A stretch of 64,000 nt of DNA from Crambe crambe (taxonomy: Eukaryota; Porifera; Demospongiae; Poecilosclerida; Crambeidae), in contig OZ004595.1 in the NCBI GenBank assembly GCA_963924555.1, positions 6,256,599 through 6,320,598 of the forward strand, written 5' to 3'. The notes beneath the pieces were generated by a model. That model saw nothing but the letters and a program-made list of their open reading frames with translations, was not told the DNA's origin and made no database searches. Of this stretch, positions 1,262 through 62,600 are shown piece by piece (the stretch's first letter is position 1; each line of letters starts with the position of its first letter). A program made the translations under genes and the position numbers.

Positions 1262-2866
1262 ATGGAGTCGTCTTTTGTGCTTGTAGCCTTTGTTCTCGTG
1301 CTTTCTGGATCTTGTGAGCCTGAACTTATTAAAGAGCGAAATAACTGGCTTGATGTGGGACTGCCTGATGAAGACCACGAACTACGAGTCACATTCGCCA
1401 TCAAGCAAACCAACCCTGAATGGCTGGAACAGAAGATCAGAGCTGTCTCTTACCCTGACTCTCCCGACTATGGCGAGTACATGAACTTTGATGAAATAGC
1501 CCAATATGTCCACGGGAGACCTGAATCTGTAGAGGCTGTTCTCAATACACTCCAGACTGCCCAGGTTCCAACTTCTATGGTGGATTTCACACTGGGCAGA
1601 GATTTTGCTGTTGCCAGGATGTCTGTGAAGAGTGCTGAAAGGTTATTCTCTGCAGTTTTCCGTGAATATGAGAACACTGACTGCGAGAGTAAGATTGTCA
1701 TATCAGAATCTATAACGCTGCCGTCATCTCTTGAAGGACATGTAGATTTTATATCTGGCATCACTGGATTTCCCATGTGCAAGAAGAAACAGATTAAGAA
1801 GGACCCATCACGAATATTAAATGCAACATTCCTTTCTATCAGTCCACCAACTATAGCAGTCGACTACAACACATCATCATACACTTCCACCAACCCAAGT
1901 AACTCACAGGCAGTTGCTGCTTTCCTGAAACAGTACTTCGACCCTACAGATCTAGCAAAATTTCAAGAGAGATATGATATTCCCAAAAAACCCATTTCAA
2001 AAGTCGTCGGTAAGAATCTTCCTGACGATCCCGGTGCAGAAGCCAACCTGGATGTCCAGTACATCAGTGCTACAGGACGTGGGGTGGATACTTGGTTTGT
2101 CTCCATTTCGACATACTCCAATGGTAAACAAGAGGACTTTCTGTCATGGATTCTCTCTCAAGTGAATGCCACTGATTCTCCTTGGGTGCACTCTGCAAGT
2201 TATGGTGACATTGAGCACACAATCGAGGATGACTACATACAACGAATGGACAGCGAGTTTATGAAGTTTGGAATCTCTGGACGGACAGTTCTCTTTGCAT
2301 CGGGTGATAGTGGAGTCACCTGTAGGATGAAAGGAAGAAAGCGAGTTTACACTCCAAACTGGCCAGCCAGCAGTCCATATGTCACTGCTGTGGGTGGAAC
2401 CTCCGGCACAAAGACTGTTTGGTCCTCGGGAGGTAGCGGATTTTCCGATGTTTTCCCAATGCCCTCTTATCAGGAAGCTGTAGTGAAGGCATATATTGCC
2501 AAGCTCTCAGATACATCCATGTTCAATACATCTGGCAGGGCTTATCCAGATGTAAGTGCATTTGCTACTGACTTTCTCATTATTGATGATGGAGCAGCAG
2601 TCCCAGTTGATGGTACCAGCTGCTCTGCACCAACTTTTGCTGGGGTTGTCTCGATTCTGAATGACGTGAGGTTGAACAGCGGCAAAAAGACCCTTGGCTT
2701 CATGAATCCTCTCCTCTATCAGACATTGATGGGAAATGGTTTCAATGACATCACCGAAGGAGAGAATGGTGATTTCCTCTGCAAGGGATTCAAAGCTGGC
2801 CCTGGATGGGATGCTGCTTCTGGATGGGGAAGTCCCAACTTTGGCCTCTTGAAGAATTTGGTCTGA
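1262..2866 (+). CDS. TPP1: Tripeptidyl-peptidase 1 (sedolisin, S53), intronless
   Basis: A 534-residue lysosomal serine-carboxyl peptidase precursor that removes tripeptides from protein N-termini. Residues 1-18 form a signal peptide (MESSFVLVAFVLVLSGSC). A Pro-kumamolisin activation domain covers about residues 25-180 and the sedolisin catalytic domain about 200-530. The catalytic set is visible: Glu260 and Asp264 in EANLD, the oxyanion Asp349 in ASGDSG, and nucleophile Ser453 in DGTSCSAP. The calcium-site region near the C-terminus (ITEGENG ... AGPGWDAASGWGSPNF) is intact. Length matches the family (human about 563). The whole frame is one exon, unlike most neighbours, so an old retrocopy or intron loss is possible. 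The start is the first ATG ahead of the signal peptide. Confidence 0.95.
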   Translation: MESSFVLVAFVLVLSGSCEPELIKERNNWLDVGLPDEDHELRVTFAIKQTNPEWLEQKIRAVSYPDSPDYGEYMNFDEIAQYVHGRPESVEAVLNTLQTAQVPTSMVDFTLGRDFAVARMSVKSAERLFSAVFREYENTDCESKIVISESITLPSSLEGHVDFISGITGFPMCKKKQIKKDPSRILNATFLSISPPTIAVDYNTSSYTSTNPSNSQAVAAFLKQYFDPTDLAKFQERYDIPKKPISKVVGKNLPDDPGAEANLDVQYISATGRGVDTWFVSISTYSNGKQEDFLSWILSQVNATDSPWVHSASYGDIEHTIEDDYIQRMDSEFMKFGISGRTVLFASGDSGVTCRMKGRKRVYTPNWPASSPYVTAVGGTSGTKTVWSSGGSGFSDVFPMPSYQEAVVKAYIAKLSDTSMFNTSGRAYPDVSAFATDFLIIDDGAAVPVDGTSCSAPTFAGVVSILNDVRLNSGKKTLGFMNPLLYQTLMGNGFNDITEGENGDFLCKGFKAGPGWDAASGWGSPNFGLLKNLV

Positions 2867-7064: not shown

Positions 7065-10000
7065 TTATGCATCTTTCCAGTCCGCTCCATCATCATCCAG
7101 CTCCACTTTTTCAAGTTCTGGTATCAAAGAATACAGAAGAATTTCCAGTAGAGCATAAAAGAGCTGCTTATTCCCCCGTGAATCTTGAAGCAATTCAAAT
7201 GTCTTTTGCATACCTATCTGACAATTTCTCTGGCCTAATATGGTCTGCAAAGCTTGCGGCCCACTTTTCATAAGTTTAGCCTTTGCCGCTTCTTTAGTTG
7301 TAGCCTTGTCCTCGTCACTTCGAGTGGGACCCAGCGGTGCAGGCTGGCCGTTGGGCCACATTGCTTCTTTGAAAGTTTCAAGGTAGAATACAAGCATCGG
7401 TTCTGAAAATACCCAATTCATTGTGTCCTGAACTTCACGATCTATGCTCTTTCCATAAGTCAGTTGCACTATCTCCACAAGCTGTTTGCGCAAAACCCTG
7501 CTGAAGTGGTCCAGTTCGAATATCTCACTTACTAGCAAGTACATATATTCTGCAGTAGAATCCGTTTCTTTACTGGCTTCTTCGGGTTGGGCCTCCTTAC
7601 CGCTGAATCTCTGCATGCCTGGAATAGACTGAATCACTGGAACATTTGAAAGTGAAAATCGCTTCTTCTCAGGGTGAGCAATGGGTTTCGTTCTTAGGTT
7701 ATCCGATGCAGGACTTATGAAGTTGAAAACTTCTTCACATTCTTTCAGTTGTTCGTCCTTGAGGACACAGCAAAGATACGTCTGCAATGCCTTGCGGTAC
7801 TTTTGCCAGTAAGCAGAATTAGCATCAGGACGCTGGAAAGGATTCAGCCACTTTGGAAGAGGAGGAAATTGGAGATTTGGGCAAATTTCAATGACTTTTT
7901 CATGTAGTTTCTCAAATTCAGAAAGATGTCTTCCCAAGGCCCATCCTGATCGACTCTGAAGATCAGTGAGATCAGAATTGTCGCTGCTTTCAGAGATTTC
8001 AGACCAGGTGTCATCGGAATCGACTGTACTGGCAACATCAATCTGAAACTGCTGGTGCTGTTTATGATGCTGCCAGGCCAGACTTTGACCAGAATCCCGA
8101 AAGGTCTCCAAAGACCCAGGATTGCTGCTGTGCAGTTCTTCCCTGCTTTTAGAGCTCTCAGGGTGATGGACGATGATGATGAACAACGGATCTCGATCAT
8201 GGTGTTCATCCTTTGAGAGGTCCACGGAATGAATGTCGACACTCCACTCCCCCACTGCATTGAACCACTTCTCAGTGTGCTCGATATAGTGCTCCAGTTT
8301 CTTGATTTCCTCCCTGAGATGGGAACGGTCCTTCTGCAATGCCTTCTTCCGCTGAGTCAGCGAATGACACACCTGTGTTTGTTCTGGCATCAAAGAAAGT
8401 TCACTGTCCTTGTTTTCTAGCTCCATCTTCAGCACTTTGAGCTTCTTCTTGTGGTGATTTTCGTCCATTTGAGAGGAGGAACTGGTGAAAAGGTTATCCA
8501 ATGGAGTAAAACCTGTGTCGCTACTACTCATGAGTTCACTGTAGTGATCACTCCATACAAAATCCTGATAAAATTGCTTCTCGATCTCGTCATAAACTGA
8601 CTCTTGCAGTTCAGTGATGCAAGACAGGCATGTTTCACTATTTGCATTCTCTTCAGACAAGAAATCCTCAATGGGCTTGATCCTGTCAGGCTCGAATGGA
8701 ACCAACTGCTCAGAGAGAGGATTAAGATGATTTTCGTATAACTTTCTGATCTCTGGGGCAAGTGAAGCCCCAGTCTCATCCTTCAAGCTCTCGGCAGCTG
8801 CCCAGAAGACTAGGAGATGACTGTACCCACATTCTTCTAGGAAATGAAGCAGGTATATCCTAATAATCTGATTCTTCATGACAGTTTCAAAGGGAATTCC
8901 AATAGGCTTTTCAACCTGAGTCAGTTCTCCTGCATGTGCACTCAGAACTGGTGTGGCTTCTTCTTCATACTCATCTCCACCTCCTTGCTTCCTCAACTGC
9001 CGATCACAACTCGCTTTTGCCGTTTCCAGCTGTCGAATATACAATTCCAAATCGCGTCCCATCAAGACCTTCAACTTCTCCGCTGGAATGGGAATGGGGA
9101 ATTGCTTGCCGTGGAGACCAGTGGTGTGTGAATGTTTCATCTTATTCACCGCCTTTGCCTGGATGATGTCCGTGATAACTTGCTGACGTAGTGTTTGCAG
9201 TTCCTCCACACCTTCGCATTTCACGATCTGATTCATGAAATCTTCAAAGTCTTTGTACTTGTACGTCATGTGTTTCTTGCCACGTTCCATAGCTTCTTCT
9301 TGCTTCGTCAAGTGAACCAGCATTTTCTGGTTGATATAATCCGGCTCACATATCATACTGATGGTGGGTTGGAAGATTTGACAAGCTAGATACTCCCTGA
9401 TCAGCACTCGGACAGGAGTACATGCCAAGACCTCCTTCGGGAGACAAATACACATCAGAACCTCGCACACCTGCCGCAGGAAATTCAACTCGTGCTCAGG
9501 ACTCTCCAAATAAGGAAACTGCACCAGGTCTGGGAATCTATTTGTTGGGATATGATCACGGTAATGGATGCCTCGGAAATTTTGAAAATGGTTGATTAAG
9601 AGTTGGACGATGTCTTGTGAGACTAGTTTCATGGTGTCAACTCTGCCTATACGCTGGAGGAAGGTGAACAGGGCATTCCAGACCTGAGGAATCACGCTCT
9701 TGAAAAAAGCTTCATGGTCTCGACCTACCAGCCTGTACGTAGGGATCACATGATGCTCAAGTGTGAGGTTAATAACGTCCTGGAGACAAGCATCGATTCG
9801 AGGAGAGAGAAGCTTTGGTTTCAAGGTGGGAGGTGGGTAGGGCTTGATTCGTGAAAGAGGGACATCGACTGTTGGTATGGATGGAGTGGGGAATGAGTCT
9901 TTGTCTCTTCTCTTGTAGGCACCTGGTTGGTACACCACAGCTAAGACCACGCCCCCAATGGCTGCCAGAAGCAAGAATATCAAGTAGATGAGCACTGGAA

Positions 10001-10118
10001 GGACGTGGTAGATAAACACGATACAAAGTAAAACTAGAAGTGTGTGTACTTTCCAGTTTTGAAGTAGTTCGTTGAAACTCATCTTTAGCTTTTCAACTGC
10101 TGCTTTTGGCGAAGTCAC
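7065..10118 (-). CDS. SNX25: SNX-RGS family sorting nexin, SNX25-like, intronless
   Basis: A 1017-residue single-exon protein. Order of parts: two hydrophobic segments at about 24-62 (endomembrane anchor); a PXA domain at about 95-275 (DACLQDVINLTLEHHVIPTY); an RGS domain at about 385-510 (IGIPFETVMKNQIIRIYLLHF ... YQDFVWSD); a coiled coil at about 540-600; a PX domain at about 605-780 (LFIIIVHHP ... LSEFEKLHEKV) with a Ser/Asp-rich insertion; and a C-terminal nexin domain. This is the architecture of SNX13/14/19/25. The HTEKWFNAVGEW linker before PX points to SNX25, which traffics receptors at endosomes. The PX phosphoinositide motif reads RHLSEF rather than the usual RRYSEF-like form. A 3-kb frame without introns is unusual here. 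It diverges from the claudin-like gene with 45 bases between start codons. Confidence 0.87.
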   Translation of the reverse strand: MTSPKAAVEKLKMSFNELLQNWKVHTLLVLLCIVFIYHVLPVLIYLIFLLLAAIGGVVLAVVYQPGAYKRRDKDSFPTPSIPTVDVPLSRIKPYPPPTLKPKLLSPRIDACLQDVINLTLEHHVIPTYRLVGRDHEAFFKSVIPQVWNALFTFLQRIGRVDTMKLVSQDIVQLLINHFQNFRGIHYRDHIPTNRFPDLVQFPYLESPEHELNFLRQVCEVLMCICLPKEVLACTPVRVLIREYLACQIFQPTISMICEPDYINQKMLVHLTKQEEAMERGKKHMTYKYKDFEDFMNQIVKCEGVEELQTLRQQVITDIIQAKAVNKMKHSHTTGLHGKQFPIPIPAEKLKVLMGRDLELYIRQLETAKASCDRQLRKQGGGDEYEEEATPVLSAHAGELTQVEKPIGIPFETVMKNQIIRIYLLHFLEECGYSHLLVFWAAAESLKDETGASLAPEIRKLYENHLNPLSEQLVPFEPDRIKPIEDFLSEENANSETCLSCITELQESVYDEIEKQFYQDFVWSDHYSELMSSSDTGFTPLDNLFTSSSSQMDENHHKKKLKVLKMELENKDSELSLMPEQTQVCHSLTQRKKALQKDRSHLREEIKKLEHYIEHTEKWFNAVGEWSVDIHSVDLSKDEHHDRDPLFIIIVHHPESSKSREELHSSNPGSLETFRDSGQSLAWQHHKQHQQFQIDVASTVDSDDTWSEISESSDNSDLTDLQSRSGWALGRHLSEFEKLHEKVIEICPNLQFPPLPKWLNPFQRPDANSAYWQKYRKALQTYLCCVLKDEQLKECEEVFNFISPASDNLRTKPIAHPEKKRFSLSNVPVIQSIPGMQRFSGKEAQPEEASKETDSTAEYMYLLVSEIFELDHFSRVLRKQLVEIVQLTYGKSIDREVQDTMNWVFSEPMLVFYLETFKEAMWPNGQPAPLGPTRSDEDKATTKEAAKAKLMKSGPQALQTILGQRNCQIGMQKTFELLQDSRGNKQLFYALLEILLYSLIPELEKVELDDDGADWKDA

Positions 10119-29337: not shown

Positions 29338-31259
29338 TTAATACAGCAAGCAAGGTACATGTTCTACAATTGTGGTGATGATCAACCAAAGAAATATGAG
29401 AAGATAAAGTAATGTGATAGATATCATTACAGGTATAATCACATAAATCCACCACATAGCCACAGCAAAGACATAGAAATTAGCTGAGACACCAAGTATG
29501 ACCACGAGGATATAGTAGAAAATGTATCCAATTGCATAGTTGTCAATTCCAATGATAGCAAGCACTATAAATGCAACTTGAGAAGCAAAGTATCCTAGAC
29601 AGAAAATAACCAGTCCCGGATGTACAAGTGGAAGAGAGAGCTTGGCAGTTAGACTTTTATCAATCAACACTTTGTACTCATAAGGCAGTAGACAAATTAT
29701 GTTGTTCATTGTAGGCTCAGTGCAAAGATTTCTGGTTATATCTTCAGCTCTGTTCTCAGCTTCCTGAATTGCTCTTTCAGGAAGAATAACGGGAGTGATT
29801 CCTGGGGCTTTAAGCAAGCTTAGTAGGTTGATGCAAATTCCAATGGGGTACTCATAGACCCAGTAATAAGTGATGACAAAGGAACTGAGAATTCCTGTGA
29901 CAGGTGTGATGTAGCCAGCAACAATCATAAACCAGAGAAAACCACTGATATGAATTGGGTCTGAATCCTGTCTATTTTCATTATCTCTGACCAGTTGATT
30001 CCAATGGTAACGATCATTAAGATCTGGACTACCATTTGACCAAGAACATGAAAGAAAAATACCATATGGAAGATGAATCCTCGTTTAGCAGCTCTTTCAT
30101 CCTGTTTTACATTTCCTGGAGACCTGTGTTGTATAGTTCTTTCCTGTACATGTTTTCTTTTTTTTAAACGAATGGCAAGTGTGAATAAAACTGCCAGACG
30201 GACAATATAGACATAGAAGAATAACGATGCAAAAGATATTACACTGAGGATGAAACTTAGTCCACCAACTGCATCATTAAATTGATATGATTTTTCCACC
30301 AGCAATCCAATCAGATTGCTTATAGTGAGAGGATAAAGAATAAGTTCAGCAATCACTATACGAGATATATCCCAAGTTTTGGTGACAAAGGATCCCTCTC
30401 CATGGTTTTCATCATTTTGTCTTCTGTTCGCTGTCTCTTCACTTGGTCTTCTGCAAGCTTCTTTCACAGTTTATATTAGAGATGCGAAAAGATCTATCAA
30501 ACTGAGGATTATGGAAATTGTGGCCAATACAACATTGAAGATATTATTGAATGCTACATTTTCCCCTATAAGGCCAAGTGAGACAGCTGAGAGTGAAAAG
30601 CTGATGATTGCGAGAATAATCTCAGTGAGGGCAATGATATTTCGTATTATAGGCCGTATGTTTGGAACTGTTTCCATCCTATCTGATTGGCACTTCATTT
30701 CTTTCAAGGGGAGGTGCTTGGGGTTCGCTTTGTTGTCCACAACAATTCCAAACTGCTGGATTGCAAGTATAAGTGATACAATGCTTATTGCAGCAGAGCC
30801 TTTTGCAAACACTGCAGCAGTTACGATCTTCACTTGCAAAATCATGAAAGCCTCTTCAGCATAGTACTCCACCTCTAGCTCATTTGTTGATGCCTGCACT
30901 TCCCCTTGACTCTCCTCTTCTCTTGTCCATCCTTCTAATAATTCCACCGCTGGTTCATATATAGTCTGATCTTCAACTCCGATAATTATTGATGCCTGCA
31001 CCTCCTCTTGATTCTCCTCCTCTTCTCTTGTTTGTCCTTCTGCTGATTCCACCAGCTCATTTGTCGATGACACTTAAGTTGTAGTCTGATGATCTTCTAT
31101 TCTAATCAACACTTCCACTTCCTCTTGATTCTCTTCCCTTGTTTGTCCTAGCCTGCTTTGTTCTCGTAGGGGCATAAGAATATCATAGGCTTCATCAGAA
31201 CAGGCTTGCTGAGGAGCAGGTTCTGAAATTGGATCGTTATCAATATGTGAACCGCTCAT
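29338..31259 (-). pseudogene. Tandem polytopic membrane-protein family, copy A (broken)
   Basis: Paralogue of copies B and C. Reading from 31259: an acidic N-terminus with DILMPLR, a TAA at 31076-31074, continuation in the same frame with VSSTNELVE, membrane segments, a second in-frame TAA at 30473-30471 followed directly by KEACRR (as in copy C), then KTWDISRIVIAELILYPLT. Near 29975-29995 one base is missing relative to copy C (GINW.. versus GMKIIKDNENK). After it the frame resumes as HISGFLWFMIVAGYITPV and runs to 29338. So there are two nonsense codons and one frameshift, with strong similarity on both sides of each. It lacks the Cys cluster of B and C and has instead an extra hydrophobic segment. 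Most simply a pseudogene; assembly error or unseen splicing could explain single breaks but hardly all three. Confidence 0.75.
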
Positions 31260-31852
31260 TCTGCAATGGCTATAGCTTTCCTGGTGATACGGTTATGACT
31301 ACCTGATACATGACTTTTCTATATTATATAGTTAGTGCATGTTTTTAACATTATGAATAAACAGAGATTATAACTTCAGTTGATGATAGATAGAGATAAT
31401 TTTGGATACAATTAATTCAGTAGTTCATGTGTTATGTAATTAGCTATAGTTGGTGTTTAGCTAATCATGTGGTTAAGTATAGGGGGAGAATTACTTAGTG
31501 CCTGGTTTATAGTTTTAACATGCGTATTGAGATGGCTATAGCTAGCTATAATCCAAACAATAGAATGTTTCAACATGTGTGTTGAAATGTTTTACCAAAA
31601 AGTAGATGCTTTGACATTGAGACAAAAGACTGTTTTTCCACTGTGTACATGTGTGTGGATGCATGGTGTCCAGGTAACAAAGGGATTGAGGTTATCCCTG
31701 CAGTAATTTCATAGTGGCCGTCTATCGACTGTATATGGTGGCAGGCTGCCAATGAATGATAGCATTATGCATGGATTTGGCTGTATTAGACTTTTTAATA
31801 ATTTCAGTATTAATGTGTGCATGCATGTAAATTAATTCTATTCTATTAATAG
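31260..31852. other. Intergenic between copies A and B
   Basis: AT-rich, no coding signal. Should contain the promoter of copy A and the 3' end of copy B. Confidence 0.6.
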
Positions 31853-34132
31853 TTAATAGTAAGTCCGACGGTGATACCTGTTGCTTGATGTATCTGATGC
31901 TAAGCATACACAGAAGCAGTAAAGAGCGAACAATGTTAACACCACTCCTATCAAGAGAAGGATGCCTATAAACACGGCTATCCACAAACCAGCCACAGCA
32001 AAGACGTACATGTTAGCTATGCAACCAAGCACAATCGAGAGTATGTAGTAGAAGACAACACCGCCTCCTGCGGAATTGATTCCAACAATGGTCGTCACTA
32101 CGAATGCGAACTGGATGGTGAAGTAGCTAAGAGAGATGATAACCAGACCGGGATGTTGAAATGGAAACATCAGCTTATTGCTAAGAGTTGTGGCAATGAG
32201 TTTTTTGAAATCGTTACGTAGCTGTGGCTTCAGTTTATTGTTTATGCCTCGTTTCAATCTCTGGAATCTACCCTCTGCTTCTTGCTTATCGGAAAAATCT
32301 TGAAGATTTTTGGATAATTTTACTGCCGTTTTATCATATTCTTCAATCTTCTCCTGAGGATTAAGGATATCCTTGATTCCAGGGCATTCGAGTAGGCTTA
32401 GCACGTTGATACAGATACCGATGGGGTACTCGTAGACCCAGTAGTAAGTGACAATGAAGAAACTGAGAATGCCTATTATGGGCATTATATAACCGGCAAC
32501 CATCATAAACCAGAGTTCAGCGCTGATGAAATATGGACCCGAGTCAAATCTGTTTGCATTATCATCAACCAATTTGATCCCAATAGCAACAAGCATTAAG
32601 ATTTGAACGACCATTTGACCAAGAACATGGAAGAAGAAGAATATCTGAAATCTAAAACCCGTGGTAGCTGCTCTTTCATCAAGATCACCATCAGGTTCTG
32701 TTCTCTCCTTATTTTTTTGCGGCCTTCTTCTTCTGTTTAGACGGATGGCTACTGTTAGCAACAGTATCAGGCGAACAATGTAGACATATACGATCAGTAA
32801 TGCAGTGGAAAGAATGAAAAGAGCATAACTCAATCCACCAATTGCATCGTTGACTATGTACGATCTTCCAACCAGCAAGTCAATCATATCGCAGATTGTC
32901 AGCGGATAGAGGACAAGTTCAGCTACTATAATACGAGATATGTCCCATGTCTTCTTAGTGAACTGTAAACATTTATTTCTTTTGGTCCCATTCTGGCCGT
33001 TATCAGATTCTTGTCTTCCTCCATTTCTTCTTTCTCTTATCTTGTTTCTGCATGCTTGAAAGAATTCAATAGAAACAAAGACATCAATGGCAGCGAGAAT
33101 GGTTGCTATTATTGCCAGCACTAGGTGAAGGATGGCATAGGCTGCATTGTTCCCCAGGCTAAATGATGCTATAGACAGAATGAGACTCAGAAATGAGAAA
33201 AAGAATTCAGTTCCAGCAATGATATCGCGACATATCGGCTTCCAAAGGGATTTGGATGAGGTGTTAGATGTGGGTCTGTTGATGGTAGGTGGATCAGGTG
33301 ATGTTTCATCAGACATCAATTCCCCAGGTGGTTGATTGGATGTAGGTCGTGTGACATGCTGAGATGAGCTAGGTGTGAACATGGACAAAGTCAAAAACTG
33401 CTCCCACCCCATCTTGAACCCACTGTCGAGGGTTTCTGTTGTTTTGAGGATGCTCTCCTCCTTTACGATACTCTTAGTACCTGGTCTCGTAACACAAGGA
33501 AGCAGATGTTGTGGACTACAAGAATATGTTGAGCAGCAACACTTAAAGTTGTGTTTGAAGCGACTGCAACAAGTTTCTTTAGTTGTATGCTCTTCTCTTT
33601 TAGCTTCATTCTCTTCTTCAATTATGTGCCTTTCAAAAAACTCAAACATTTGTCGTAGTGGTTCTCGGTCTTCGTCATTAATCTGAAGGGTTTCTTCTTC
33701 TTTGTTGATAACATCAGATTCTGTGTTATTTTCAGCTGAAGTTATTACTATGATTTGCACTTTTTCCTCTTCCTTCTTTATTTCATAGTCGACAGCTTCT
33801 TCACTTTCTGGTATATCAATCACTGTGATCTGCAATTCTTCTTCCTCTTCCTCTACTTCCTTCTCTTCAAGTGGACGGAAATAATACATCATGCGTTGTA
33901 TCCGTGAAACTTGCGGTGGTGTGTTTGGTGGTGGTGCTGTCAGGCTTTGCTCCACTTTTTGCTCTCTTTTTCTTTTCAATTTCCCACCAAATTTCAGAAG
34001 CTGGCCTTTTTTACCACTGGGTGGAATTTTTTTAGTTTCCTTCTTGAAATCTGGAGCTTTTTCAACTTCAGAAACTGGTGGAATTGATGAACTTGAAGGA
34101 GTTGTTTTGCTTTTCTCTGCAGTCAAATCCAT
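31853..34132 (-). CDS. Tandem polytopic membrane-protein family, copy B
   Basis: About 760 residues in one exon; first in-frame ATG at 34132 (MDLTAEKS). The N-terminal third is charged, with a Glu-rich run (EVEEEEEELQ), then a Cys-rich segment (CCSRF..NFKCCCSTYSC). The membrane core begins at about residue 295 with roughly eight to ten hydrophobic helices. Blocks shared with A and C include TWDISRIIVAELVLYPLTIC, FYYILSIVLG, FFFFHVLGQMVVQILM and IGILSFFIVTYYWVYEYP. A charged soluble loop (about 590-650) separates the last helices; the C-terminus is short and polar (SNRYHRRTYY). I do not recognise a named family. The frame stays open upstream without an ATG and encodes HDSLKPLRDSL, matching the N-terminal motif of A and C, so the true start is probably in the ORF at 34180-34437. 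Confidence 0.8.
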   Translation of the reverse strand: MDLTAEKSKTTPSSSSIPPVSEVEKAPDFKKETKKIPPSGKKGQLLKFGGKLKRKREQKVEQSLTAPPPNTPPQVSRIQRMMYYFRPLEEKEVEEEEEELQITVIDIPESEEAVDYEIKKEEEKVQIIVITSAENNTESDVINKEEETLQINDEDREPLRQMFEFFERHIIEEENEAKREEHTTKETCCSRFKHNFKCCCSTYSCSPQHLLPCVTRPGTKSIVKEESILKTTETLDSGFKMGWEQFLTLSMFTPSSSQHVTRPTSNQPPGELMSDETSPDPPTINRPTSNTSSKSLWKPICRDIIAGTEFFFSFLSLILSIASFSLGNNAAYAILHLVLAIIATILAAIDVFVSIEFFQACRNKIRERRNGGRQESDNGQNGTKRNKCLQFTKKTWDISRIIVAELVLYPLTICDMIDLLVGRSYIVNDAIGGLSYALFILSTALLIVYVYIVRLILLLTVAIRLNRRRRPQKNKERTEPDGDLDERAATTGFRFQIFFFFHVLGQMVVQILMLVAIGIKLVDDNANRFDSGPYFISAELWFMMVAGYIMPIIGILSFFIVTYYWVYEYPIGICINVLSLLECPGIKDILNPQEKIEEYDKTAVKLSKNLQDFSDKQEAEGRFQRLKRGINNKLKPQLRNDFKKLIATTLSNKLMFPFQHPGLVIISLSYFTIQFAFVVTTIVGINSAGGGVVFYYILSIVLGCIANMYVFAVAGLWIAVFIGILLLIGVVLTLFALYCFCVCLASDTSSNRYHRRTYY

Positions 34133-34179
34133 CCCCACTTGTTCAACTCCTTTTAAAAATAGACTGTCACGAAGAGGTT

Positions 34180-34437
34180 TTAAACTATCGTGAAATCTTC
34201 CTTTTGCATGGAATCTTCCTCCACTGCTTGTACTCCTTCTCCTAATAATGAATCATGCATAGGCTTTATACTGTCGTGACACTCTTCCTTAATATCAGAC
34301 TCCACAGCTGGATCATTTTGAGGATCTTGCTTATCAATAAGGAACTTTTTATCGTCAGCAAGTTCGTCATCATCTATGTGAGTGACGTATTCTCCTTCAA
34401 GTGATGAATCATCATCACTCATCTTTGAGCTTGTCAA
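34180..34437 (-). CDS. Likely 5' part of copy B in a shifted frame
   Basis: 85 codons, acidic (MSDDDSSLEGEYVTHIDDDE), containing DSIKPMHDSLLGEGVQAVE. The next stretch, in the frame of copy B, repeats this as DSLKPLRDSLFLKGVEQV, about 20 residues later. The two frames differ by one base with no convincing GT-AG intron between them. Either an indel has split the gene, a non-obvious intron joins them, or this is a separate short upstream frame. Confidence 0.5.
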   Translation of the reverse strand: MTSSKMSDDDSSLEGEYVTHIDDDELADDKKFLIDKQDPQNDPAVESDIKEECHDSIKPMHDSLLGEGVQAVEEDSMQKEDFTIV

Positions 34438-35223
34438 GAAGAAGGAAATTGGCTATAGATAAGCTTATGGAGAACTGCTGTACACCAAATACTAAGATTT
34501 TAGCTCACAGTAGCTAGTTCAAAAAATAGCAACTACCAAGTGTTTATAAATCTGGTAGATATATTATATCTTGTAGTTATTGGGAGAAGTGTAGCAGCAG
34601 TGATTCTGATTGGTTGCAACTGAGGGAGACATAATTATCTATTCACATCAAGTGAGTACATTTGAAAGAGAGAACCACCCTCAAGTTAAAACTCTTATCA
34701 CTTCAACTGGATTCATAAAATACTTTGGAGAATAGCTAGCTTTGATTGACCAGATAGTAGCTAACCACTTTTTACACCCACTCACTGTCATTATGTAATC
34801 CACCCCTCATAATGTGGTCGTAACATCCAGTCATAACAAAGTTTGCATGCATGACCAGAAAAATTACTGTATACTGAACATGAAGAATCAAACCTGTATA
34901 CATTGCTGTTACATGCACAACATGCCTGTCACATGCATGGCATGCCATACATGCAGACCCTCCCCCCAATTGATTAGTTAGAGAAAGGGAAGACAAGGGG
35001 ATTAGCTAAGACTCCCCTTCAGCAATTAAGGTTGCTTAACTATGTATAGCCCCACCCACCCTGCCTGATATTGGGTGGAAAATTAACGCTGGTGTACGTG
35101 CACCCTTCATTGTAATTACAACAGGTTCATAGTTGTCATGGTAATAGTGTATATCAAGACATACATTAGGAAAAAAGAGCTATTATTGGGGGGGGGGGGG
35201 GGATTCTAAATCATAGTGACTGT
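34438..35223. other. Intergenic between copies B and C
   Basis: No coding signal. A poly-G run of about 14 bases lies near 35188-35201, just downstream of the copy C stop. Several catgcatg-type palindromes occur at 34850-34955. Confidence 0.6.
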
Positions 35224-37395
35224 TTACTGTTTGCCAAGTAGAGAACGCACGAGCCAACGAAAAGCCAATGCTAGCACTACTAAGAATGACATGAGGAGAG
35301 CTGCACAGATAGGATACCATATTGCAGCAATAATAAAGACATAGATGTTAACAATAATGCCAAGAATAATCGATATGATATAGTAGATTATATATCCCAA
35401 CTCAGCACTCTGGATTCCAATGATAGCAGTTATTACAAACGCAAATTGTGAAGCAGAATATACCAAACAGACAAGCACTGTTATAGGGTGGAAACATGGA
35501 TATGTGAGCTTCTTGCAAAAGCCTTTATCGATGAGTTTTTTGAAGTCATTCCGTAAGTTTTCTGCTTCTTTGAGATATTTAGTAACTTCTTGACTTTTTT
35601 TCTCAGCTTCTTTTAGAGCTTTTTCCGGGAAGATAATGTGGCTAGTTCCAGGAGCTTCAAGTAAGCTTAGTAGATTGACACAAATCCCAACGGGGTACTC
35701 ATATACCCAGTAGTAGGTGACGATGAAGAAACTGAGAATGCCTATGACAGGTGTGATGTAGCCAGCAGCCAACATAAACCAGAGAAGACCGCTGATGTGA
35801 ATCGGGTCTGAATCCAGTTTATTTTCATTGTCTTTGATTATTTTCATTCCAATGGCAGCAATCATTAATAGTTGAGCTATCATCTGACCAAGAACATGAA
35901 AGAAGAAAAACAAATGAAAACAGAAACCTCTTTTGGCTGCCCGTTTATCCAGCTGGTCAGATTGCGGGGACGTCTCTTTACAATTTTCCTTCATCTTTTT
36001 TCTCCTTCTGTTAAGACGAATAGAAAGTGCCAATAAGACGGCAAGACGGACGATATAGACATAGAAGAATAGTGATGCAAAGGAAATTACAAATAGAGCA
36101 AAGCTTATCCCACCTGCTGCATCACTGAACATATAAGACTTTCCAACCAGCAGTTCAATCATATCACATATAGTAAGGGGATAGAGGATAAGCTCGGCAA
36201 CCACAATACGAGATGTATCCCACGTCTTTGTTACATAAAGTTTACATTTCTTCTTTAACCTTCCCCTTCTGTCGTCATCATTACGCTCAGCATCTTTTTC
36301 TTTTTCGTTGATGGTATAATTTGTTCCACCATTCCTTCTCTCTTTGTATTTTTTGCAAGCTTCTTTTATACCTTCAGGGGATTCCAGAGATACAACGAGA
36401 TCTATAAGTGCGAGAATTGTTGCAGTTACAGCCAAAGCAAGATGGAGGATATTGTAGACTGCATCATTTCCCAAGCTGAAGGAGGCAGCCGAGAGAGAAA
36501 GACTGATGATTGAAAGAATGAACTCAGTAATGGCTATGAAGTCTCGCAATATCGGTCGTATGAGAGGATTGGCTAAACTTCCAAACTGTTTCCATCCAAT
36601 TTCATTTCCATCATCCAGGACTTCGTTTGTTTCAAGGATAGAAGCAGGTTGATCCCCTCCACTTCGTTGTTTGCAAAGATTTGGGAGTGTTGAATGGCAA
36701 GTACATCGGACCAAAGCTGTGCAGCATTTCCTTCTGCGTCTGTCATTGCAGCAGCTGCAGCAAGTTTTCTTTTCTTGTTTACTTGCAAATACTTTTAGTG
36801 CTTCCCCTATTGCTTTTTGATCCTTTAATTCTTGTCCACTTACTGTCGTATCGCTGTTATCGGAATTATTTTTTTCGGGTTCATTATCAGCACTACTTGA
36901 TAATAATTTCACATCTTCATTATTCACCACAGAATCTTCTTTCGTGTCTTCAATTTTTTCCTCTTCCATTACTTCTACTACTTCTTCCTCTTCCATTTCT
37001 TCTTCTTCCATTGTCTTTTCTTCTTTTTCCATTACTTCTACTACTTCTTCCTCTTCCATTGTCTTTTCTTCTTGTTCCATTACTTCTACTACTTCTTCCT
37101 CTTCCATTACTTGAAGATGTTCTATTGTCTTTTCTTCTTCCTCCTCTTGAAAGTTTTCTATCACATCTTCTTCATCTTTATCTTCTTCACTATTCAGTAG
37201 CATGTTTTCTTGATTCTCAAAGTCAGCATTATCGATTTCTTCACCTTCAGGAGGTGGTTTGTTCATCATTTCAACCCGCAATGGCATCAAACTATCACAT
37301 TCATCCTGCTGATCTTGTTCTTGCTCTGAGCTCTTTATAACGACCTCTTCAAGTACATTTGCATTACCTATCACCATTGAGGAGTCATCAGTCAT
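35224..37395 (-). CDS. Tandem polytopic membrane-protein family, copy C (intact)
   Basis: 723 residues, single exon, start MTDDSSMV. Residues about 1-190 are very acidic with a DECDSLMPLR motif and imperfect repeats of EEEEVVEVME/KEEKTM. Then comes a Cys cluster (KKTCCSCCNDRRRRKCC) that could be palmitoylated or bind metal. The membrane core (about 285-723) contains hydrophobic stretches such as ITEFILSIISLSLSAASFSL, ILHLALAVTATILALIDLVV, VAELILYPLTICDMIELLVG, FVISFASLFFYVYIVRLAVL, FFFFHVLGQMIAQLLMIAAI and YIIYYIISIILGIIVNIYVF, about eight to ten helices. Basic loops (RRRKKMKENCK) lie between. The only fully intact copy in the window. No enzyme or transporter signature seen; function unknown. 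Confidence 0.85.
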   Translation of the reverse strand: MTDDSSMVIGNANVLEEVVIKSSEQEQDQQDECDSLMPLRVEMMNKPPPEGEEIDNADFENQENMLLNSEEDKDEEDVIENFQEEEEEKTIEHLQVMEEEEVVEVMEQEEKTMEEEEVVEVMEKEEKTMEEEEMEEEEVVEVMEEEKIEDTKEDSVVNNEDVKLLSSSADNEPEKNNSDNSDTTVSGQELKDQKAIGEALKVFASKQEKKTCCSCCNDRRRRKCCTALVRCTCHSTLPNLCKQRSGGDQPASILETNEVLDDGNEIGWKQFGSLANPLIRPILRDFIAITEFILSIISLSLSAASFSLGNDAVYNILHLALAVTATILALIDLVVSLESPEGIKEACKKYKERRNGGTNYTINEKEKDAERNDDDRRGRLKKKCKLYVTKTWDTSRIVVAELILYPLTICDMIELLVGKSYMFSDAAGGISFALFVISFASLFFYVYIVRLAVLLALSIRLNRRRKKMKENCKETSPQSDQLDKRAAKRGFCFHLFFFFHVLGQMIAQLLMIAAIGMKIIKDNENKLDSDPIHISGLLWFMLAAGYITPVIGILSFFIVTYYWVYEYPVGICVNLLSLLEAPGTSHIIFPEKALKEAEKKSQEVTKYLKEAENLRNDFKKLIDKGFCKKLTYPCFHPITVLVCLVYSASQFAFVITAIIGIQSAELGYIIYYIISIILGIIVNIYVFIIAAIWYPICAALLMSFLVVLALAFRWLVRSLLGKQ
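36950..37140. repeat. In-frame Glu-rich repeats in copy C
   Basis: Repeated cttcttcctcttccattact-type units on the plus strand, encoding the acidic VVEVME..EEKTMEEEE repeats on the minus strand. The antisense frame is Leu-rich and is only a shadow. Confidence 0.85.
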
Positions 37396-56648: not shown

Positions 56649-59600
56649 TCACACTGTTGTGCTGCTGAGAACAGTGGGTGTGGCAGTTCTGTTACAAGGT
56701 GCCATGACAACCTGCTCCTCCTTCATTGAACGAAGAGCTGATTCCTATGATTAAAAATACAATAAAAATTAATATTAAATTCTCCATCAACATGTGACAT
56801 GGCATACCCTGAGACTCCGTCGAGCACGCTCAGCGATGTCCATCTGGGAAGATGCAACTCCTTTTGGTACTATGGGGGAGGTGTCAGCTCGCTGGAACCC
56901 GATTGAAGAGGCACTTGAGGGACGTGATTGGCTGTTGATATTTGTGGGCAGCTGAAAGGACTTCTTTAGACTGTTCCTGCGACTGGGATGGAGATCTGAC
57001 GACGACCCCACTGCTGAGGGGGTTGGGGGTTTCATGGGGGAGTTGCTGCGAGTGAAACGAGAGGGAGATTGGGAACCAGACCCGTGATTGCTTGGACTCA
57101 GATTGAGTGGAGAGTACGAAGGCATCGAGAGATTGTTTATGGACCTGAAAGGAAGAGAAGTTCTCCTACTTTAATATCTCAAGCAACTTATATTTTTGAC
57201 AAGAAACTGTTGAGATAGAATTATAACGACTGAGAAAGGAGCTTTAATGCTTATTTTAATATCATAATGAGAAAGCACAATACTTACCCACTTATATCCT
57301 CTCCAAAGAGAGACGCTATCTTTCCAGCGAGGTGCCTGCGAAGCTGACTCTTACTATGTGGGATCTGTATGGTCTGAGCCAAATCGTTGGCCGTGAAACG
57401 TCCTCTCTCAAGGAAGAGCAGACCTCCGTGAACTCCAGTCCCTATGACGTTGCTAGCATAGTCCTGCCAGACACAAAACACAAAACAATCACTAACAGAG
57501 GAAAACTAGTTTGCAGAAAACCTTTACTTAATTGGGGAGATGTTTAGAGTCATGTTTCTAGTCAGCACTACCAAACCACAAACACTAAAGCTCATTAGGC
57601 GTTCTACAACACAGCAAATTGAGAAAACTGGACTTTTAGGCATTGATTTGTACCTCGTTATTAACACACACAAGATGTGCTTAAGGTCAGTCAGTCTATG
57701 TCAACACTACTCTCCTCCACATGCTGCTATGTGTTGAGGAGTCAAGGGGTCAAGAAGGGGTCAAGAAGGAGGAAGAGCTCTCGGACGCAGATATACCTAC
57801 CTGCAAGTCAATATCTTGGAGCCAGTCTGCGACGTCTCTATTGGTCCAGTAGAGAGGGTTGTTACTGTTTCTTCGGTGTTCTTGTATAGTCTGGAGACGA
57901 AGGGAAGGGGAGGGGGAGTGGTCATAATGGAGGAGTGGTCATAATGGAAGGGGAGGGGAGTGGTCATAATGGAGATGAGTTTGCATTTACCTCTCTGTTG
58001 AATTCATGCATGCGAAGGAGCTCCACTCCTGACAAGAAGCTGAGCAGGTCCACCTTCTTAGTGATCTTCAGGTAGCGTTTGAGGTCATCCTTAGTGAGGG
58101 AGTCTAGGACACGCCCATCCACCAACTGGGCAGTGAGGATCTCTGTCAGGTGGGCCAGTCCACAATCGTGTGCCCATTCAAATGCCACCCAGCTGTGATC
58201 GATGGTACTGGCATGTGGGTACGGGAACCTAGAAGAGGGGGAGGTAGGAGGGGGGGGTTGAACCGGAATGAAGCCATTGTTATTGTGAAGTACGTTGGCA
58301 TGAATGAGCACTAATCCAATCAGAGGTGCTAACTTTCTAGCAACAACAATGCTTTGGTGAAAACATTCTCTCATAGAGTAAATGATCTGGCATAGATATC
58401 CATCACGGTCACCTGATCCACCACACCCCTTGAGATCAGGTGGAATCTTGTAACATGATAATTCTAATTAGCATAGCAGTGTGTTATTGTGTTATTATAG
58501 TGGGTGTCCTGATTAGAGAGGTGTCCTGATTAGAGAGGTGTCCTGATTAGAGGGGTATCCTGATTAGAGAGGTGTCCTGATTAGAGGGGTGTCCTGATTA
58601 GAGAGGTGTCCTGATTAGAAGGGTGTCCTGATTAGAGGGGTGTCCTGATTAGAGGGGTGTCCTGATTAGAGGGGTGTCCTGATTAGAGAGGTGTCCTCAT
58701 TTCGGGGAGAACAATAGTGTATTATTGTATTACATGGAGTCCTCATATGAGGAGGTCCCGTTGCACACAAACACAACACAGCTATTAGGTAACTATAAGA
58801 TTTCAGTTCCATGAAGTACAACTTGGACATTGGCCAACAAACAGGCATGAGAAGGATTCTCTGGAAGAAGCCATGGACCCTCTCACAAATTTTGTGAATA
58901 GTTGCTATGCCTTTAAATGGGTAAGCCACTAAGCCCTACAAGAGAGGGTAGTGAATGCAAATCAAACAGAGAGGAACTAGGACTGATGCTTGTTTAGATT
59001 CTACAGAGAAAACCTTGTTATGCTCTACTACTACGTCATACTGGGAATACAGATCATATCCTGATAAAATACAAGCTAGCTACTGGGAATACAGACCGAA
59101 ATACAAGCTAGCTAGAATACTGTGGGATTTCCTTGGTAAATATTTTTTGTGGGTTTTAATGGATCATCATTAAACCTCTTCCAAGATTCAGAGGCAGGCC
59201 TCGGCCTCCCCCAGGCTGCTCACTATGATGCTATGGTTACTGAGATACAGTTGGCATGAATTTTTATGCACTAACTGCTGGCATGTATGACATAAGAATT
59301 AATGAATTAATGCCACTAAGTTTCAATGTTTGCTTTTAAGGATCGCTAGGTCTTTACTTAACGACAGAGTCCTAGAGTAACTACTTTCAAGAGCCATGCT
59401 TACTTACAACATGTTGCTAAGGAGAAAACGATTACACACAAAATACTTACATGTGAGGAGATTTCTTTTCCTGGAGAGCCAGAAAAAGTTTCCTTCTGTG
59501 GAGAGGGTTGGAGATGCCCAGCTTCTTCTCAATTTCTGCCTGAGTCAAGGAGAGGAGAGCAGTCCCATTGGGATACTTCTCGGCCACCACTCTCGAGTAC

Positions 59601-62600
59601 TGTCCCATTCCTACAGGAAAAGTAAAGAATGCTCTGAAGTAGTAGAGTAAAAGTCTTTTTATAGATTGAGTTTCTCCAGTTGTGAATGTGTAGAGAGGGA
59701 ATCAAGTGATGCATGTACGTGGTGTCCTGCATGCAATGACTGATGAATTTAGTTCCATGACGTATGAATATCTATCTGTGTGGTCCAGTGAATACGACAA
59801 TACAACCAAGGGCAATGGAGCAGTGGCAAGTGTTTTCACGGGCTAAATTAGGAACTGACCGTCCCACACTATGAATATACTAACATGAATATGAATATCT
59901 CAATCACTTGTTAAATGGCACGAATGAAGTTTGGCAGGATCAATGAATAAAGAAATAAAGAGGGGACACACCTTAATTATTTCTGATCCTACACTCACTA
60001 AACACACAAAAGGCAAAAGGACTTACCAATGCCAGCTTCCAGCCATGCCACTATGGTGTTCACCTCCCACTTGCTGAACGAGAGACCTCTAGCTTCTTCC
60101 AAGATCCGCCACTGCTCCTTGAGGTCGGGACCCACTGACTGATAGGGGGACCCCACGTTGGCAGAGGAGTGACCAGACCCCTGGATCAAGCTACTCTGAC
60201 TGAGATTAAGACCATCTGGAGAAGGAGGAGGGGATGAAGAAGAAGAAACAGTTTCCATCATTATTCTTTACAACGCAATAACAGACTGACAAGATTTACT
60301 GTCTAAATTGTTTATTTAAAGCGAGCATCTGCTTTTATAGCTCAACAAAATCCAACACATGGGCAGAAAAATGGCCTCTACCTGACTGTTCCTGCCAGCT
60401 CTTTCATTGTTCATCCTCCTTAAGGAGGCCATTTACGGCTAATGAGGGTCACTCCAGCCAGGTTCCCGGGAAATTGAAAATGATTACATAGCAATACATG
60501 TGGCTTACAGACAGTAATATCAGTACTTCTTGTGATACTAGTTCCCTATTGGTTAATGCTACAAAGGTATCGGCATTCCAACAGACTATCACCACAACAG
60601 ATCAAGTTTAGAGTTTAAAGTTCACGGTAACCTTAGAAAGAGCCTGCAGCAATCTTTACCTCATGTAATATCTGGCTAGGAATTTGATAAAAATCCTCCT
60701 GTCAACAGTGAGTCACTAACTGTTTACATAGGGCACATAGGGCAGGGCACATAGGGCACATAGGGTGGACTGGCTATGGATTTCCACTAACAGACCACTC
60801 TCGATCTTGTTTAAACACTAACTCCCCTTTACAGGATTTCTTCAAATCCCTGGCCAGTCCGCCCTATGTAGGTTATGTATAGGTGTAAGTGACTCCTAGT
60901 GGCCGCTAATTCACTTTACAAGAGAGCTGGGCTCCTGGAATCCAGCTCTGTACTGCTAGAGATATCAGGGGAGGCAACCAAGCGTACAGCTATAGGAGAA
61001 GTGTGTGCAGTATATAATGGAGTCAAGTCTTTAATAAACATACTCATGACTCTAACTCTAATTACATTAGGATCCATACTTGGACAGGATACGAGGGAAT
61101 ACTCTGGAGATTCTGATGTGAAAACTGCTCTAAGAGTCATTGTTTGTGGTGTGAGGAAGAGGGACCACCTGTGTGTTAGTACTGAGTCCAGCAATATACA
61201 CACACGTCTGTCTGATAGGCGTGGAGGAGAGCTCATGGAATGTAATGTAATTAAAATCATGAATGTCTTTAATACTATAATGATCTGAGCTCATGGCCAC
61301 GTGGGCCATATGGCGGATGTGGCCATGAGCTTGCCAGGTCACAGTCAGGGATGATCAGACTTGGGAAAACTTATACTGTCTGAAGCCACTCACTTGAAAC
61401 GATTTAGTCTATACTTTGTTAGCTACAATGTATTTTGCTTAGTTTCTCAGTATCAGAACAATTTAACCTGTCACCATGCAGAAGCGGAAGTTGTACAGCC
61501 TAGCAGGCTATGGATACTTCCATACTTAGAATCCATTAACTATACACTCCACATAGTACACTACACATTGCCATGTATACCCTGTCTCTCCTCGGGCTAT
61601 TGGTATCCTGAAAGTATCCTGAGGATATTTTAATACTCTACATTAATTGCCACCCTCAGGCTATTGGTATCCTGAGAGTATCCTGAGGAATACTGCCACC
61701 TAATACTATACACTACTCGATCCACATAGTACACTAATACCTTGCCACCCTGTCTCCTCAGGCTATTGGTATCCTGAGAGTATCCTGAGGAATACTGCCA
61801 CCTAATACTATATACTACTCGATCCACATAGTACACTCCTCAGGCTATTGGTATCCTGAAAGTATCCTACAGAGTGGGTCTGGTAATTATGTTTTGGCAT
61901 GATGGTATAATAATGTTGAAGCTTACTAACCACATATTTCTGGAAGGACTTGGTAGCTATATGATCTAATAGGAGTTTTAGGTCTTCATGATGTTGTGCA
62001 TAACAACTGTGGGGGGGAGTGGCCATGGGGGAGTGGCCATGGGGGAGTGGCATAAAAAAGCTATGAGGGAGTGACATAGTGTACTAATAATTTATTTAGG
62101 ACTCACCCATACTGGTCAGACTGGCTATGCTGGTTTTACTTCCCCCTCTGCCGCTGCTTCTCCTCATTTTGGTGAGAAAGGCACTTTTCTTTTTCGTTGA
62201 CTTGTGAGACTCTCTGCTTCCTAGAGGCTGGGAGGAGTATCTCCTGCCAAAGACGGGAGTCATCTCCCGACCGTCATCATTCAGACTTGCTGATTCGACA
62301 CTCATCTCCCTCTCCCAGTTCAGTCCGAGAGAAGAGGAGGAGATTCGATACTTGGAAGTCCTCTCAAAGTTACTTTCTGGTTCCTGGCTCATCCCCCCTT
62401 GAGTAAAGGCCAGTTCAATGCTTGGATTCCGACGCAGGGAGAGGTTCACTTGCACACTTGCATCTGTCGTATCAACATTAGGACGAGATGACTTGAGGTT
62501 ACGTAACAGGTCCCTTAGAGAGGAATTGGAAGACTTGACAGACATAAGCTCATCGCGTGTACGATCCAACTCCCCTTGGATACTCAGCAGGGATCCTTCT

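Follow-up and report, generated by a model that had tools for sequence, protein, structure and literature searches.

We identified what we regard as a real, previously undescribed family of multi-pass membrane proteins in the genome of the sponge Crambe crambe, one that, judged from its sequences, is under selection, occupies multiple loci, and has no described counterpart in the searched libraries. The family was recognized in the window, the 64,000-nucleotide stretch analyzed here (C18:6256599-6320598 of a 143-Mb, 119-contig assembly), in which three copies, termed A, B, and C, form an array on the minus strand. The best explanation of this array is that B and C are working members of the membrane protein family and that A is a decayed one. 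The evidence for the family is strong; the mechanism that we propose for it below is a weak claim.

The array and its relatives elsewhere in the genome

The sequence-only reading of this DNA had described three single-exon paralogs. Copies B and C are indeed long single frames, whereas copy A carries two in-frame TAA codons (31074-31076 and 30471-30473) and a change of frame. An in-frame stop lies 9 codons upstream of the ATG of copy C, and the first ATG of copy B, at 34132, would give a protein of 759 aa. By BLASTP, B and C are 44% identical (289 of 663 columns; E, 9e-155), with 57% identity over the 425 aligned codons of the core. The match of copy A to C shifts frame at about 29997, and its pieces, in two different frames, are 53% and 52% identical to C. 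Copy A is most likely a pseudogene, a decayed family member, and decay is the simplest reading because eight intact relatives keep the whole core in one frame; an assembly error is a possible alternative account of the damage. The three blocks previously described as strict across the array are exact in B and C and were found in A by relaxed patterns only (Table 1).

Table 1. Positions of the three copies, their conserved blocks, and their tail features within the window
Feature	Positions	Strand	Basis or remark
Copy C	35224..37395	-	intact 723-aa frame
Copy C, membrane core	~36540 down to 35224	-	hydropathy, alignment
Copy B	31853..34138	-	intact frame, 761 aa from GTG
Copy B, membrane core	~33223 down to 31853	-	hydropathy, alignment
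Copy A	29338..31259	-	broken; family-like start at ~31259
TM3 block KTWD.SRI.VAEL.LYPLTI	C 36169..36228; B 32894-32953	-	pattern match
TM3 block, relaxed form	A 30321-30380	-	pattern match
TM5 block FFFFHVLGQM..Q.LM	C 35863..35910; B 32594-32641	-	pattern match
TM5 block, shorter form	A 30015-30059	-	pattern match
TM6 block ILSFFIVTYYWVYEYP	C 35692..35739; B 32423-32470	-	pattern match
TM6 block, varied form	A 29845-29892	-	pattern match
Glu-rich repeat tract, C tail	36939..37127	-	repeat family D3; periods 15 to 63
Cys cluster with basic residues, C	36673..36762	-	residues 212-241, upstream of TM1
Cys cluster, B	33494..33571	-	7 Cys within 40 residues

Family members were found at 10 or more loci in this genome, spread over five contigs: C18 carries three (A, B, and C), C8 another three, C5 two, and C12 and C15 one each. 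Searches with four queries (C, a C8 member, the C12 member, and B) all returned the same ten loci, and these counts are lower bounds. Eight of the ten loci hold a full-length intact frame. A lineage-specific expansion had been suggested from the array; the ten loci demonstrate duplication inside this genome, which substantiates the expansion part of that suggestion only.

A phylogenetic tree of nine members, from which A was left out, separated into three clusters, none with support below 99/99: subfamily I (B and C), subfamily II (the C8 members), and subfamily III (those on C5, C12, and C15). One fork within III was not resolved, and the tree program warned that II and III join by their long branches, which leaves the order of the clusters unsettled. 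Subfamily profiles matched each other with E values of 1.8e-40 (I versus III) and 1.1e-30 (I versus II), at between-subfamily identities of only 20 to 28%. All three subfamilies have the same layout, namely, an N-terminal tail with a Cys cluster, about eight membrane segments, and a long C-terminal hydrophobic stretch. The sequences make a strong case that the array forms a single branch within a wider family of three subfamilies.

The C15 member (L011:1392-2796) is probably decaying. Its frame stops at 378 aa, and the C-terminal part resumes in another frame (L011:2512-2796, 66% identical to a relative). Compared with a C5 relative, the frame has a dN of 0.27 and a dS of 0.35, and the dN/dS ratio, near 0.75, is consistent with relaxed constraint.

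Two C8 paralogs are 97 to 100% identical over ~1.1 kb (L012, ~1580-2660, and the matching part of L013:4511-6211), and both flanks of the tract are clearly less identical. By codons, dS is 0.03 in the tract versus 0.37 and 1.02 outside it, which points to recent gene conversion over the membrane core.

A conserved core with fast-changing tails had been proposed for the array, and substitution rates agree. Between B and C, the core has a dN of 0.33 (pS, 0.72, with synonymous sites near saturation; 425 codons), versus a dN of 0.77 at 29% identity in the tail, where synonymous sites are saturated (first 278 residues of C; 238 aligned codons). From these rates we conclude that the core is held by purifying selection and that the tails diverge faster.

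The tails had also been called acidic. This is true of C, with a net charge of -54 before TM1, and weakly so of B (net, -12); it fails outside the array, where subfamily II tails carry a net charge of +4 to +6. Composition and repeats were the sole basis for calling the tails disordered. Internal repeats occur both in the C tail, as the Glu-rich tract, and as a repeated block in the translation of one C5 member. A Cys cluster precedes TM1 in all nine members, with 3 to 11 Cys in the best 40 residues (counted with no significance test); C has 9 Cys within 40 residues, and the weakest cluster, 3 in 40, belongs to a subfamily II member. These cysteines are probably S-palmitoylated.

Predicted membrane layout and a proposed mode of action

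Hydropathy analysis gave nine segments in B, in C, and in the full-length members of subfamily III (n = 3), ten in subfamily II (n = 3), and six in the truncated C15 frame; the nine segments each in B and C fall within the 8 to 10 hydrophobic helices first estimated for the shared core. The last two or three segments merge without a charged loop in the hydropathy profile, and for this reason these proteins may in fact have eight spans followed by a long or reentrant end. A self comparison of the core detected no internal repeat (next-best self match, E of 0.36).

Loop charges and sequons lead us to predict that the family has its N terminus inside. Under this model, the inner loops hold 219 Lys and Arg in 1,314 residues versus 51 in 766 for the outer loops, and the density of these residues is higher in the predicted inner loops in all nine members. 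Inner loops exceed outer loops in total length in eight of the nine (the ninth being the truncated C15 frame). N-glycosylation sequons number 13 in the predicted outer loops versus 7 in the inner loops, which are longer. The charge rule is weak in subfamily II because acidic residues outnumber basic ones in the inner loops of two of its three members (24 Lys and Arg versus 28 Asp and Glu in one; 18 versus 19 in the other). B and C each have a single inner sequon and lack outer ones, and a further five inner sequons are distributed over three other members; these inner sequons do not fit a simple glycosylation logic.

The positions that vary in at most one of the members extending to them include (C numbering) E291, R396, E401, P406, R450, H500, Q504, P549, G552, W563, E566, and N683. 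H500 is replaced by Tyr in one member and E566 by Pro in one, and N683 is conserved in all eight members that extend to that position.

We tentatively postulate, while rating the idea at somewhat worse than even odds, that these proteins constitute an undescribed family of N-in gated channels or transporters with an anchored, variable cytosolic tail. The N terminus would be cytosolic, and the Cys cluster ahead of the membrane would be S-palmitoylated. Eight membrane segments with short outer and long inner loops would follow, ending in the long C-terminal hydrophobic stretch. The proteins would act as a gated channel or transporter, in which conserved polar residues from TM1, TM3, TM4, TM5, and the last segment would form the lining of the path. 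Trafficking, partners, or gating would be determined by the rapidly diverging tail in the cytosol. We infer the orientation, the palmitoylation, and the transport activity from sequence, with the Cys cluster and the conserved residues suggesting the palmitoylation and the polar membrane path. Several points count against the channel or transporter reading, among them that conserved polar residues in helices are also found in receptors, scramblases, and enzymes and that internal repeats of the kind common in transporters were not detected here. A bolder version, in which a new N-in channel or transporter family with a fold of its own is confined to this animal lineage and combines a fixed core with exchangeable tails that tune each copy, strikes us as unlikely.

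Described families and rival identities

The sequence-only reading could match the core to no family and proposed a profile search as a check; the Pfam search returned no confident match to a described membrane family, which supports the description of the family as unrecognized. Pfam-A was searched with B, C, and three pieces of A, with all nine members at E values of ≤1, and with eight of the nine at E values of ≤10. Among the nine members and the three A pieces, no row reached its cutoff. The NCBIfam search gave a single row, for one member, with an E value of 0.85. Three family profiles found no chain in the PDB at an E value of ≤10, and a phmmer search of the PDB with C listed seven rows with E values of 0.37 or worse.

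The Pfam rows below threshold were treated as noise. The best of them, DUF3671 (Fam-L/Fam-M like; PF12420), matched C alone of the nine members (E, 0.00069), far under its cutoff at 19.6 versus 34 bits, and we attribute the match to membrane composition. The other such rows each occurred in one of the nine members, and the best of the rows for single A pieces, DUF2157 (E, 0.0079) and RAMP4 (E, 0.013), were also under their cutoffs.

Pattern searches yielded 129 and 361 matches in viral contigs and 503 in prokaryote genomes, none of which were confirmed at an E value of ≤1e-3; such collections are unlikely to hold an animal family. No family of this kind was described in the titles and abstract openings surveyed in the literature. 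The peptide blocks were not found in the paper texts searched either, a result of little weight because papers seldom print sequences.

Two further families were considered. TMEM26, searched for on account of a vague likeness, had no match in the genome, but that search carries no information because its controls were silent too. Anoctamin (PF04547) gave no Pfam row in the nine members and the A pieces, and no link was found; the genome does contain anoctamin matches, split into several pieces on C11 and C13. Together with its matches to SAND and to XK-related proteins, they give the genome an animal-like content.

The family could instead belong to a described membrane family from which it has diverged so far that only the fold would reveal it, and we think this quite possible, at a little short of an even chance, with no particular family favored. 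Sequence similarity is often lost among membrane proteins, and our family profiles are shallow, with a Neff of about 2.6 to 2.8. Distant membership of this kind must be reconciled with the Pfam-A results, in which no family matched more than one of the nine members at an E value of ≤1, and with the absence of any PDB match to the three profiles at an E value of ≤10.

A more specific proposal, kinship with the seven-transmembrane ion channels (insect OR/GR, GRL, DUF3537, and PHTF), which are ligand-gated cation channels, we judge improbable. What recommends it is the predicted N-in orientation together with inner loops that are longer in total in eight of the nine members, two features that serve among the screening criteria for these channels (PMC7746228). 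The eight full-length members differ from them in having nine or ten hydrophobic segments rather than seven, by hydropathy count, and no Pfam row for such a family was obtained. The genome also lacked a 7tm_7 match in a search whose controls were silent too, and the TYhhhhhQF motif was not seen by eye in the conserved end segment. The missing TM7 motif is no strong argument because the canonical motif is only partly or not conserved outside insects (PMC9998090).

An XK-related-like phospholipid scramblase was considered for a likeness, judged by eye, in TM1 and in a Q..xQ pattern of TM5. Both groups are multi-pass proteins with charged residues in membrane helices, the latter as in Xkr8 (PMC8500837). 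Profile similarity was not found: hhalign against the genome's own XK-related proteins, using one- and two-sequence XK profiles only, gave matches of 13 and 20 columns with probabilities of 0.6% and 0.1%, and none of the nine members or three A pieces had a PF09815 row. The genome has separate XK-related genes above the Pfam cutoff. We rejected this identity on the negative profile comparison and hold it to be very improbable. A G-protein-coupled receptor is the least credible identity of all, since a multi-pass layout and a nonsignificant phmmer hit between C and a chain of the dopamine D2 receptor (E, 0.37) stand against a predicted N-in orientation, nine or ten segments in the full-length members, a family profile without a PDB match, and no 7tm Pfam row.

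Significance and other features of the window

Should the family prove restricted to this lineage, its eight intact genes would allow testing of a membrane function that other animals are not known to have, with the invariant residues as direct mutants and the three subfamilies as natural contrasts. If it instead proves to be a divergent family of channels or receptors, it would be relevant to how such animals sense or transport in the absence of the families that other animals are known to use. Sponges commonly have unmatched proteins, which makes the finding less surprising; in a study of Spongilla, 3,875 unannotated proteins had confident models, and 316 of these lacked a Foldseek hit (PMC10176882).

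Elsewhere in the window, positions 1262-2866 (plus strand) hold a single-frame sedolisin-like peptidase (pro-kumamolisin activation domain, E of 1.8e-26; subtilase, E of 8.3e-05). At 7065-10118 (minus strand), one uninterrupted 1,017-aa frame encodes a sorting nexin whose domains are PXA, RGS, PX, and Nexin_C. Animal genes of that kind usually have many introns, and for this reason this one may have arisen as a retrocopy or by loss of introns. Tandem arrays occur at 58502-58701 (17-bp unit, 11.8 copies) and at 61654-61837 (102-bp unit, 1.8 copies, 98% match).
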